A stretch of DNA of 64,000 nucleotides, taken from NCBI GenBank assembly GCA_005116745.1, contig SWDS01000006.1, positions 330,935 through 394,934 on the forward strand, written 5' to 3'. Shown here piece by piece: positions 58,011 to 63,853 of this stretch. Position 1 is the first letter of the stretch. Each line of letters starts with the position of its first letter. The notes below the pieces were generated by a model. It worked only from the letters and a program-made list of their open reading frames with translations. It ran no database searches and was not told the DNA's origin. This stretch comes from Nitrospira sp. (GTDB taxonomy: Bacteria; Nitrospirota; Nitrospiria; Nitrospirales; Nitrospiraceae). Made by a program: the position numbers and the translations under genes.

Positions 58011-58289
58011 CACCCATCAGCCTAGAAGTGGGAGTGGGATCGTGCGCCGGCTCAGGTTGGATGTCACCATCCGGCTGCCGGATGTGGTAACACATATTCC
58101 CTATTGACTCTCATTTCCTCCAGCAGACCGGGCAACATTCACCGCAACCTTTCCCGACCAGCTTGGTCTTTGCGGCAGTTCCAGGACATCTGTTCGAAAA
58201 TCCAATATTAACTAGGTAGTTCTCATCTGGCGTGTTAATAACCTCTAGTAAGCCAGCGGTAGTGACTCTAACAAATGGAGAGGCGAATC

Positions 58290-59012
58290 ATGAACGCAAT
58301 CCATCCGACGAATACGAAAATAGTGATGGGGATGTTGTCATGCGGTATTCTCGCTGCTGCTTGTTTTGCATCGATCCCCGCACAAGCTGCTTTTGTCAGT
58401 AATGGAAGCTTTGAATTTCCTAACACGAGTCCAGGAACGGTGATGAACATCAACGCTGGCACTGAACCAGCCGGGTTTGCTTGGACAGTGACCACTGGGA
58501 ATGTGGACATCGTTAGGAACGGTTTTGCTGGTAGCACCGCCACGGCATACGATGGAGCCCAGATGCTGGACCTCGTAGGTTCTGGTAGCATCGGAGGAAT
58601 ATCTCTATTACTTCCGACGACGACAGTGGGAACTCAATATACCCTCAGTTTTGCTTATGCAAACAATCCGTTTAATGGCCCTACCACAGCATCCGCCTCT
58701 GTATCTCTGCTCGATGGCGCGAGTCCGCTATTTTCAGAGAGCATCACACATGACGCGTCGTCAACATTTAACTACAACTGGGCTTCCTTTAATAGGGTCT
58801 TCACCGGAACGGGGAATCCCGTGACGTTAGCCTTTGATAATACGATCGCGATAGCCGGTGGCAATGGTGGGATACTACTTGATGCGATATCACTAACACC
58901 TGTTCCCGTTCCCGCTGCTATTTGGCACTGGTTTGGCTGCTCTCTCTGTTCGCTCTCTCAGATTATGGCATCGCCGAATCCAGGAGGAGGAGTAACGGTA
59001 ACAAACCAATGA
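58290..59012 (+). pseudogene. Secreted PEP-CTERM-type protein with frameshifted sorting signal
   Basis: About 240 residues. The ATG at 58290 follows GGAGAGG. A signal peptide ends near AQAAFVSNGSFE. The mature part is Ser/Thr/Gly-rich beta-sandwich sequence of the choice-of-anchor type. The end reads TPVPVPAAIW and then changes frame; in the alternative frame the codons after 58920 read FGTGLAALSVRSLRLWHRR and stop at 58993. Together they make a perfect PEP-CTERM tail. The gene looks interrupted by loss of one copy of an 8-base repeat. Confidence 0.7.
58918..58925 (+). repeat. Slippage site in the PEP-CTERM tail
   Basis: CTATTTGG is present once. Two tandem copies would restore PVPAAIWLFGTG and the correct reading frame exactly. 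Confidence 0.5.
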
Positions 59013-59434
59013 TTCCTGATCGGTGCACTGTCCGGTAACACTACCCACTAACTGGCCCATAACGTTTTTAAGTCTTCCAGCTATTTCGCCGTTTACAGTT
59101 CTCTATCTAGCCATCGTACGTGTGATGCCCAACCTGTTACCCAATTGAAAACCAGCGTAAGCTGTAGGAACTTATTGGGTTGAGGGGGAAATGTAGTGGT
59201 GTGCACGAGAACATCATTCCTGGTCTGACAACCTGGGTTGACCGTCGTAGGTGATCAATGGGCAGTGGAATATAAGGACGTGACTGCCTCGATACCACTT
59301 CGTGGCATCGAGGCCAGCCCAACCTCCGCCTTCTGGCAACTCTGGATGTGACCTAACTATCTAGGCGGAGATGCTGTGGCGCCCGGCTCATCCGCCAATC
59401 TATGCGGTTCACCATGTTGCGGCGATTGAATCGC
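59013..59434. other. Intergenic region with one strong hairpin
   Basis: About 420 bases without a gene. GCCTCGAT and ATCGAGGC (59286-59314) flank a CCAC-TTC-GTGG inner stem, giving about 12 pairs with one mismatch. There is no T tract. Its role is unknown. The rest holds nothing I recognise. Confidence 0.4.
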
Positions 59435-60013
59435 TCATGGGTCCTTATCCAATGACGGTGCTCGCTTTATGGTCAACTCTGTGACTTCCCGGCAGGTCTG
59501 TAGCCCCAGGCTGCAATTGACCCTGATCGTCTTCTTCGCGATGACGTCGGAATCTTGCCCCGGCGTCCAGCCGCCGATCTCGTAGCCACCCTTCGCCCGG
59601 TTGAATCTGGTGAAGCGCGTCACATTGAAGGCCCCGCTCCATCCACCACCTTTTGAAACGACACGTGCCTCATTAGCAAGTGGAACACCCGGGTTCGCTT
59701 TCGCCATCAATTCCTTTAATTTTTGATCATTAGAACCAACACAATGGGTCTCTGCCACTTCCCCTGATTGTCCTGGCAGAATAATCAAGTTCACGGCAAA
59801 TGGCTCAGGGTCGCTGCTGATCGAGCCTCCGTTCACATGGAAGGTGGTTGTGCCGGTGCCCTGAATGCGGATTTCGCACGAGGCCGGCTGTGTCAATGTG
59901 CGAGTTGCGTACTGCAGTGCGCCTTCCCCAACCCATTGGCCATCGTCCTCCCTGAGTCGGAGCGGGACTGTGGCCTCGACATGGGCATCGAACCCATTCG
60001 AACTCATAAACAT
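59435..60013 (-). CDS. C-terminal part of the split cytochrome gene
   Basis: As a stand-alone frame it begins MFMSSNGFDAHVEATVPLRL and has 192 residues, with no ribosome binding site. The same frame is open upstream without a stop to the poly-G tract at 60121 (EFHDPPDCGC...LNLPNPPFG). It therefore looks like the downstream half of the diheme cytochrome gene. It contains Cys residues in ASCEIRIQG, THCVGSN and NCSLGLQTC. No family recognised. Confidence 0.6.
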   Translation of the reverse strand: MFMSSNGFDAHVEATVPLRLREDDGQWVGEGALQYATRTLTQPASCEIRIQGTGTTTFHVNGGSISSDPEPFAVNLIILPGQSGEVAETHCVGSNDQKLKELMAKANPGVPLANEARVVSKGGGWSGAFNVTRFTRFNRAKGGYEIGGWTPGQDSDVIAKKTIRVNCSLGLQTCREVTELTIKRAPSLDKDP

Positions 60014-60036
60014 ACCGAATGGCGGATTCGGAAGAT

Positions 60037-60849
60037 TTAATGGTTCCTGAACGATGTGCGATTTGAATTCCAGAACGATCCCCTCGGCCGTACATCCGCA
60101 GTCCGGAGGATCATGGAATTCCCCCCCCCCCCCATGGCGTCAATCCAGTCGTTGGCATATTTCGTCAAGGTCGCAAGGGACATCCGCGGAGGTTCCGCGC
60201 CTCCGGCTTCCAGCAGCCCCTTGCGCCCCTTGAAGCCTTCCAGCACCAACTCGTCGTCCTGCATGTGGCGGAGGAAGAGGTCAGGCCGATTGGTGAGCGA
60301 CGATGTCTTCATGTGCACGCACATCTGCTTTGCGCTCCTGCCGACGAAATGGTTGTTCCGTATGGGAATGACCCAGGAGAAGATGTGACATTCCTTGCAG
60401 ACCTTCCGCATGGGATCGAAGGCTTTCAGCCTGATCAGATCGTTGTCGCTGATCTCGGTTGGGCTCTCGGCTATCTCCTTCAAGCCGGCGATCGTCTTTG
60501 CGGTGATGGAACCAGTAGGATCACTGCCGGTGGTCAACGCGCTCTGGAAGTCCGGCAGTTGCAGAAACTTCTTTGTTTCTTCTTGAATATCGATGTACCC
60601 GCCCCCGTGTCCGCCGTTTCTGGAAAAGGGATTGACGGCTCCATGGCAGTTGAGACAGCGCGGTTCCTGAAAGATCGGGGCGAGTCCTTTGAAGGCCTTC
60701 ACCGCGCGAATTTTTTGCGTGGCGCTCAGGGGGCACGAATCCCTTGCGCCATGGGCCATTTGTGGCCGCACGGTGAAAAAGACGACGCTGATAACCGTCA
60801 ACAGGAAGATGGAGACGATGATGCAAGACATCTTTGTGAGCCGTACCAT
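60037..60849 (-). CDS. Diheme cytochrome c-like protein, N-terminal part
   Basis: About 270 residues as encoded here. GAGGTGAC precedes the ATG at 60849. A signal or anchor (MSCIIVSIFLLTVISVVFF) is followed by a periplasmic domain with two heme motifs, CLNCH and CKECH. The frame runs through 13 G residues (plus strand C, 60121-60133) and then reads a non-coding-like tail of about 30 residues to the stop at 60037. Adding one base, or losing two, joins it to the frame ending at 59435, giving about 470 residues. Confidence 0.7.
   Translation of the reverse strand: MVRLTKMSCIIVSIFLLTVISVVFFTVRPQMAHGARDSCPLSATQKIRAVKAFKGLAPIFQEPRCLNCHGAVNPFSRNGGHGGGYIDIQEETKKFLQLPDFQSALTTGSDPTGSITAKTIAGLKEIAESPTEISDNDLIRLKAFDPMRKVCKECHIFSWVIPIRNNHFVGRSAKQMCVHMKTSSLTNRPDLFLRHMQDDELVLEGFKGRKGLLEAGGAEPPRMSLATLTKYANDWIDAMGGGGNSMILRTADVRPRGSFWNSNRTSFRNH
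60121..60133. repeat. Homopolymer tract of 13 C (G on coding strand)
   Basis: A run of 13 C interrupts the cytochrome gene exactly where the two halves change frame. Such tracts slip during replication and are also error-prone in sequencing. Confidence 0.9.
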
Positions 60850-61008
60850 GTCGTCACCTCTCAGGCAAGGAATGGCCGCCATGCTAGCCCAGGCGTCTGG
60901 GTTCTTCAAGTAAGCCTGAGGGAATACCTTCCATTTACTGACAGCATGGGCGTTGCTATTCAACCGTGCTCTTGCGTACAATCCCGTCGATTTTCTTGTG
61001 AGGTGTCG

Positions 61009-61707
61009 ATGCGATACCTGGCGTTTCCCCTTCTCCTCCTATTGCCGCTTTCCGCTTACGCCGGCAATATCAAAGACACCGATCTCATTAGCAGTAACAA
61101 CTTCTTTCTGCCGCCGAGTACCCAGAAGACCGTCTTTATCCAGGCTCGGAACTCCTCCGATAACCAAGAAGTCTCGCTTCACGATCTGGGCGCTCGGTTG
61201 AGCGCCAAAGGTTACCAGATTGTGAATGATCCGGACGGCGCACATTACGTCCTGCTGGCCAACATCGTTTACTGCAATATCACGAAGCCCGACATGCCGG
61301 TCGAAGCGATGGTGTCGAGCGGCTATGGATCCGCATTCAACTCAACGTTGGGCGCCATGCAAGGCCTCACCAGCATGGCCAGCATGGCGGGGCCGTACGG
61401 CGCAATAGGCGGTGCGGCGGCCTCAATGGGGTTGAGCGCGATTCAAGGCATCGGTGATCTCTTCAGCTCTTCATCATCTGCTCCTAAGATGCCGGACGAC
61501 GTGAACTATGCCTGTGTCGCGGACGTCCAGATTACGGAACAAAAGACCGTCCAGCTTCCCAGCGGGATGAAAACCGGAACAGGGCAGGAGCCCGGCGTCT
61601 ACCAGACAAGACTGGCCGCCGATGTCCACCAAAAGAAACTGAAAGAGGCCGAGGCGACACCGCTGTTGCAACAAAAACTGAGCGCCGCCGTCGCAGGAAA
61701 TTTCTGA
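61009..61707 (+). CDS. TraT-family outer-membrane protein, copy 1
   Basis: A 232-residue protein with a signal peptide (FPLLLLLPLSAYAG). It fits the TraT family: NNFFLPPSTQKTVFIQARNSSDN, LSAKGYQIVNDPDGAHYVLLANI, a Gly/Ala-rich central segment, MPDDVNYACVADVQITEQ and a C-terminal ATPLLQQKLSAAVAG. Plasmid TraT blocks mating-pair formation and complement attack; chromosomal relatives have unknown roles. No lipobox Cys is seen. GTGAGGTG precedes the start; a long upstream extension of the frame is antisense to the cytochrome gene and ignored. Confidence 0.8.
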   Translation: MRYLAFPLLLLLPLSAYAGNIKDTDLISSNNFFLPPSTQKTVFIQARNSSDNQEVSLHDLGARLSAKGYQIVNDPDGAHYVLLANIVYCNITKPDMPVEAMVSSGYGSAFNSTLGAMQGLTSMASMAGPYGAIGGAAASMGLSAIQGIGDLFSSSSSAPKMPDDVNYACVADVQITEQKTVQLPSGMKTGTGQEPGVYQTRLAADVHQKKLKEAEATPLLQQKLSAAVAGNF

Positions 61708-62459
61708 TGCCGTCTTCTTTCAGACGCCTCACGTCTCACCCCTTACCCTTTACACTCCTGTTGGTTCTCCTCGTATTGGCCACAGGCTGTTCCAACGTCA
61801 TCCGTTCCGGCCTCATGAACAGTAACACCATCTTCCTGGATCCCAGTACGAACAGAGCTGTCTACACCCAGCTCAGAAACGCGTCTGAAAACCAACAAGT
61901 AATGCTGACTGACGTGAATACGAAACTTGCGGGAAAAGGGTACCAACTGGTTCAAGACCCAGTACAAGCGAACTACTGGATACAGGCCAAGATGATCTAC
62001 TGCCACCAGGCGGCGGATGGGGTGACTCCGGAACAGGTGGCCAAAGCCGGGCCCGGCGCCGGTATCAGCAGTGGAGGTACCGTGATGACTTCGGCTGGTT
62101 CCATGGGTGACGAGTCTGGCATGGGCATGGCCGGTATGCCGGACATGAGCGCCATGATGAGGCAGGCCATGGGCATGAGCGGTGGGGGAGGAGGATTCAG
62201 TGGCATGTCCGGGTTCTCTGGCATGCAGCCACCGCCCAAGGAAGATGGCGTGACGTACCTATGCGTGGCCGATGTTCAAATTACTGACCGCAAGATCGGC
62301 AAATCGATCGGTCGACCGACCAGCGGTCAGTCATCGGCCGGTGAAAAGGTGCAACTGATGAGAATGGTCGGCCACGTGCGGCAAAAAAGTTTGGATATTC
62401 CAGAAGCCACGCCGATTGTACAAGAGAAGATCGCTACCGGCATCGCCGGACTGTTCTAG
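61707..62459 (+). CDS. TraT-family lipoprotein, copy 2
   Basis: A 250-residue protein with a lipobox (LATGC, Cys28). It shares TIFLDPSTNRAVYTQLRNASEN, LAGKGYQLVQDPVQANYWIQAK, DGVTYLCVADVQITD and a C-terminal EATPIVQEKIATGIAG with copy 1. The central segment is an unusual Met/Gly/Ser stretch (MGMAGMPDMSAMMRQAMGMSGGGGGFSGMSGFSGMQ). The start ATG overlaps the stop of copy 1 by one base, so the pair is translated together. Confidence 0.8.
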   Translation: MPSSFRRLTSHPLPFTLLLVLLVLATGCSNVIRSGLMNSNTIFLDPSTNRAVYTQLRNASENQQVMLTDVNTKLAGKGYQLVQDPVQANYWIQAKMIYCHQAADGVTPEQVAKAGPGAGISSGGTVMTSAGSMGDESGMGMAGMPDMSAMMRQAMGMSGGGGGFSGMSGFSGMQPPPKEDGVTYLCVADVQITDRKIGKSIGRPTSGQSSAGEKVQLMRMVGHVRQKSLDIPEATPIVQEKIATGIAGLF

Positions 62460-63682: not shown

Positions 63683-63853
63683 ATGAGCGTTCAACCCTTT
63701 GTCTTGGGGCAGGATCAGCATGAGGCCGCATTGAATGTCGTCAGAACGCAGGTGACGGTGTTGGTATCCAACGAGGCGACGTACAGCTACGGGATCACCT
63801 TGCAGTAGGGCGAAGAAAGAACAGGCCCTCCGCTGCATCGCCAGGATTGGAAC
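63683..63853 (+). pseudogene. Cupin-domain fragment with an internal stop
   Basis: The frame MSVQPFVLGQDQHEAALNVV...YSYGITLQ is followed in frame by TAG and then GEERTGPPLHRQDWNH and a second stop. The GPPLHxxDW motif is the metal-binding end of a cupin. Loss of the CAG codon to TAG and the early end make this a decayed gene. Confidence 0.6.

Follow-up and report, generated by a model that had tools for sequence, protein, structure and literature searches.

Does a run of 13 G that breaks the reading frame of a diheme cytochrome c gene in Nitrospira sp. act as a slippage switch, or is it a fixed break or an error of the assembly? The run lies in a 64,000-nucleotide stretch of contig SWDS01000006.1, here called the window, whose positions are used throughout. 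On the plus strand, 13 C occupy positions 60121 to 60133, so that the coding (minus) strand carries 13 G, and the first of these is the G of an ATG codon. The original prediction had put the run exactly where the open frame changes, and this is where it was found, in the linker between the heme domain and the C-terminal domain.

Reading frames on the two sides of the tract

As assembled, the minus-strand frame at 60037 to 60849 starts with an ATG at 60849 and encodes 270 amino acids (aa). It has a signal peptide-like N terminus, the heme motifs CLNCH and CKECH, and, past the glycines, a tail of 27 nonsense residues without homology. By frame arithmetic, a tract of 12 G ends the product after 245 aa, and tracts of 11, 14, and 17 G give one protein running to 59435, of 470, 471, and 472 aa, respectively. 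The downstream frame has no stop in the 227 codons that lead up to the tract. In a first-order Markov model built on this DNA, open frames of at least 225 codons arose in 0.4% of trials. The truncation with a short nonsense tail at 13 G, the openness of the downstream frame through to the tract, and its fusion (59435 to 60013) with the N-terminal part at 14 or 11 G into a protein of about 470 residues all held as predicted. This arrangement, a homopolymer in a coding region with alternative C termini depending on the register, is that of a C-terminal phase-variable gene.

Both heme motifs lie behind a hydrophobic N terminus, the combination of CXXCH and a predicted export signal that characterizes c-type cytochromes, and both are conserved in relatives, in agreement with the diheme assignment. 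No Pfam cytochrome family scored above the cutoff (PF11845 and PF13442 were sub-threshold at 13.7 and 13.1 bits, respectively), and an Rfam search returned nothing. The motifs and the export signal are all encoded upstream of the tract. Because the heme sites are upstream, slippage would add or remove the C-terminal domain and would not switch the cytochrome off. The tract and the frame arithmetic of the original prediction stood, but what a switch would toggle is a C-terminal beta-rich domain. An AlphaFold model of the related gene B described below (pLDDT 37, usable for rough secondary structure only) suggests that the N-terminal part is helical up to a point shortly ahead of the tract and that the part beyond it is beta rich. 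The C-terminal domain of gene A, also described below, gave a beta-rich model of medium confidence when modeled alone (pLDDT 62.5), and this model had no match in the PDB below an E value of 0.001.

Relationship to two neighboring genes

The N-terminal diheme part (60134 to 60849) is 68 to 75% identical to a gene, B, that is unbroken (450 to 473 aa) in three Nitrospira MAGs, ACE_NIT12, CG24B, and RSF1. Gene B shares its N-terminal 240 aa and the linker residues with the window gene, but it has no G run and carries its own beta-rich C-terminal domain, which is only about 27% identical to that of the window gene. The linker of the unbroken relatives reads WIDAMG(E/G)KFHRPPDCGC, and the window linker in the 14-G register reads WIDAMGGGGEFHDPPDCGC. 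Right after the tract, at 60077 to 60120, the joined register gives EFHDPPDCGC, compared to KFHRPPDCGC in the unbroken genes. The match of the post-tract residues to those of the relatives marks the joined register as ancestral, and the earlier assumption that it is the real one was confirmed by the conserved residues that it restores. At the DNA level, the relatives have ATGGGCGAGAAATTT or ATGGGTGGCAAGTTT at the tract site, with no run, and the window differs from them by a net gain of 5 nt at the linker, which is why its gene is out of frame.

A G run at the orthologous site was absent from gene B in G206, CG24B, and RSF1 and from a remnant of B, lacking the heme motifs, in G167. The repeat is thus not kept at the orthologous site in the way that marks a conserved contingency locus. 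A stable split gene in relatives, which the original prediction had named as an observation that would speak against a switch, was not found either: gene B was unbroken in three genomes and a remnant in the fourth. Gene B is also rare, being present in 5 of 79 genomes of the genus.

Farther downstream, the C-terminal domain (59468 to 60076) is up to 79% identical, in more than 10 genomes, to the final third of another gene, A, of about 720 aa. Judged from these matches, the window gene is a chimera of B and A, its two parts having different closest relatives and occurring as separate genes elsewhere. The claim that the tract splits a cytochrome gene was therefore correct as to the diheme N terminus and the joinable frame, but the gene is not simply a cut one. 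Alignment places the likely recombination junction at 60051 to 60076, where the DNA matches to B and A overlap. This overlap sits in the motif (V/I)LEFxSxIV, which is common to A and B and is a plausible crossover point. Upstream of the B-derived N terminus, 152 bp (60869 to 61020) next to a divergent gene pair belong to the upstream region of gene A (94.7% identical to G036). The order in the window is, accordingly, the divergent pair, A upstream DNA, the start and N terminus of B, the tract, about 45 bp of B, the A C-terminal domain, and the A 3′ end. The chimera occupies the position of A, and A and B are neighbors in relatives. For instance, G206 has a divergent TraT-like pair, A, B, and a radical-SAM gene in this order, G149 has A, another gene, B, and the radical-SAM gene, and G036 has the same order without B. 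Neither the N terminus of A nor the C terminus of B was found elsewhere in the host genome.

A misassembly that joined two distant pieces through the poly-G, hinted at by a contig (C10) that starts with a C run, was considered and rejected. This was because the change from B to A occurs 45 to 70 bp past the tract, inside the shared motif, and because synteny with relatives is maintained in the flanks and C10 begins with unrelated sequence.

Compared to its A orthologs, the chimera has a 66-bp insertion at 59402 to 59467 that holds the present stop codon (59435 to 59437), and a remnant of the ancestral 3′ end of A (59360 to 59401) now lies past the stop. The insertion had no second copy in the genome, and its identity as a repeat element was rejected on this ground. 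The neighboring plus-strand DUF642 gene (58275 to 59012) has a frame-broken PEP-CTERM sorting signal, with VPVPAAIW in its own frame and FGTGLAALSVRSLRLWHRRIQEEE following in another. Loss of 8 bp between direct repeats of CTATTTGG could account for the break.

Rarity of the tract and constraint on the two halves

Another G or C run longer than 8 was not present in 164 kb of the same genome, and the 3.86-Mb assembly holds only one second run of at least 10, at a contig end. Extrapolation of the run-length decay predicts about 0.002 runs of at least 13 per genome, so the 13-G tract is not a product of chance. Across the genus, a G run of at least 10 was present in 64 of the 77 genomes searched. 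Among 69 sampled G/C tracts of at least 10, most were 10 to 12 long, and 45 were not well inside an open reading frame (ORF) of at least 150 aa. Only the tract at 60121 to 60133 was flanked on both sides by at least 150 open codons, with the register differing between the two sides. For the genus, the tract is exceptional, and this is compatible with an unusual switch as well as with a recent accident. Two other tracts in this survey were distinctive. A 53-C run within a contig (L057; G273 C1, position 1458) was far longer than any other and is probably an assembly artifact. In CG24B, a run of ten G (L054; G300 C15, 136070) lies in frame inside a long open frame (343 plus 283 codons) and is possibly another slippage site.

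For the N-terminal part, pairwise pN/pS against B genes was 0.20 to 0.22; the C-terminal part, set against the nearest A genes, gave 0.26 to 0.28, compared to 0.17 to 0.30 for A-A pairs among five genomes. The values for the chimera (0.20 to 0.28) are slightly above those of close ortholog pairs, and being low in both halves, they give no sign of long neutral decay. The C-terminal half, moreover, has no stop before the 66-bp insertion, an outcome seen in about 4% of simulations of neutral drift at 0.2 substitutions per site. Together, the ratios and the stop-free C-terminal half suggest that both halves were constrained for most of their history; the chimera could still have passed through a short, recent neutral period.

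A possible slippage switch and its alternatives

We tentatively favor, at somewhat less than an even chance, a tract that is prone to slip, is probably of mixed length, and acts in the manner of C-terminal phase variation. The 5′ part of diheme gene B would have taken the place of the initial two thirds of the neighboring gene A, with the right-hand crossover falling within the motif common to both, and a linker site that has few G in relatives would have grown into the 13-G tract. A homopolymer of this length is expected to slip during replication. Lengths of 8, 11, 14, or 17 G would give an exported diheme protein with the C-terminal domain, other lengths would give a product that ends in a short tail after the diheme part, and the assembly, with 13 G, would have captured one of the registers present in a probably mixed population. 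Slippage in vivo would be reversible and might bring some benefit.

Several observations argue for such a switch. The tract coincides with the frame break, conserved residues are restored directly past it, its length is far beyond chance, and it is the sole one of the 69 that separates long frames. The low pN/pS and the stop-free downstream half point the same way, as do the frame accuracy of the assembly elsewhere and the published cases of C-terminal phase variation and of fusion to a downstream frame. On the other side, the tract was found in one species only, with no run in the B relatives, and it is the only intragenic tract of its kind in the genome; genomes with established phase variation typically have many. 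The signs of local decay, namely, the 66-bp insertion with its stop, the broken PEP-CTERM neighbor, and the B remnant in G167, also count against a switch. A search for the same species elsewhere gave no match in viral contigs or plasmids.

These signs of decay bear directly on the possibility that the gene is a dispensable leftover chimera in which tract expansion produced a recent, fixed frameshift. Gene B is rare and degraded in G167, the A-derived part ends at a premature stop, the adjoining DUF642/PEP-CTERM gene is also frame-broken, and A and B are both incomplete in the host genome. We nevertheless regard a fixed break as doubtful, since the frames of both halves are otherwise intact, with conserved residues and low pN/pS, and a 13-G run is reversible in principle. 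An error in the length of the homopolymer, with a true tract of 14 or 11 G (or a mixed one) and an intact gene, is unlikely in our estimate. In its favor, the ancestral register is one base away, and homopolymers longer than about 8 bases are where long-read and consensus assemblies most commonly err in length. The assembly was otherwise frame accurate, with 37 genes giving full-length matches to G036, but the tract is the sole run longer than 8 in the 164 kb, and the rest of the window has no run long enough to calibrate accuracy at 13 bases. A wrong count of 13 would probably still leave a long tract in place. Finally, transcriptional or ribosomal slippage could let the 13-G gene yield full-length protein, as long homopolymers can support slippage and the joined frame is intact. 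This is very improbable, given that transcriptional slippage is documented mainly at A/T runs (PMC3711429). The tract is also not conserved in relatives, unlike programmed sites.

Most known cases of phase variation at G tracts involve the surface genes of host-associated bacteria. Poly-G tracts cause C-terminal phase variation in Helicobacter canadensis (PMC2823697), and in Neisseria gonorrhoeae one of the registers can join the gene to the coding sequence that follows, as for NGK_1211-NGK_1212 (PMC5320596). The window gene resembles these in having an in-gene poly-G past an intact N-terminal part and three registers with different C termini, one running into a downstream frame. However, for those species, reads or comparisons among strains revealed variation in repeat length, whereas the Nitrospira tract is known from one assembly. 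It also lies mid-gene, where it would control a whole domain of about 220 aa, and it stands alone, in a fresh chimera of a nitrifier. A long G homopolymer at a frame break is likewise typical of slipped-strand mispairing contingency loci, the classic case of on/off translational phase variation, but here the tract is far from the start codon and the out-of-frame product keeps the heme sites and the export signal. The original interpretation is partly supported, in a changed form: a lineage-specific tract in a chimeric gene would toggle the C-terminal domain and not turn the cytochrome on and off. No report of phase variation in Nitrospira, or of a c-type cytochrome with a poly-G tract, was found in the literature searched. 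Neisseria ccoP/fixP, once a candidate through its (AT)5 repeat, was dismissed as showing no variation.

If real, the switch would mean stochastic switching of a periplasmic or secreted redox protein in a chemolithoautotroph, Nitrospira, that has no host immunity to evade. The full picture, a free-living nitrifier toggling, cell by cell, a borrowed C-terminal domain on an exported diheme cytochrome, and so a phase-variable, fusion-born redox protein outside host-associated bacteria, is quite unlikely. If the break is an error or is fixed, the chimera would still be a clear case of domain swapping between neighboring genes. Upstream of the chimera, the divergent pair (61009 to 62459, plus strand) encodes two tandem TraT-like (PF05818) proteins, and its position is kept in the relatives examined. 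A short plus-strand ORF at 63683 to 63853 has a match limited to the N-terminal 57 aa of a 147-aa G036 protein, stops or diverges after that, and is possibly truncated.
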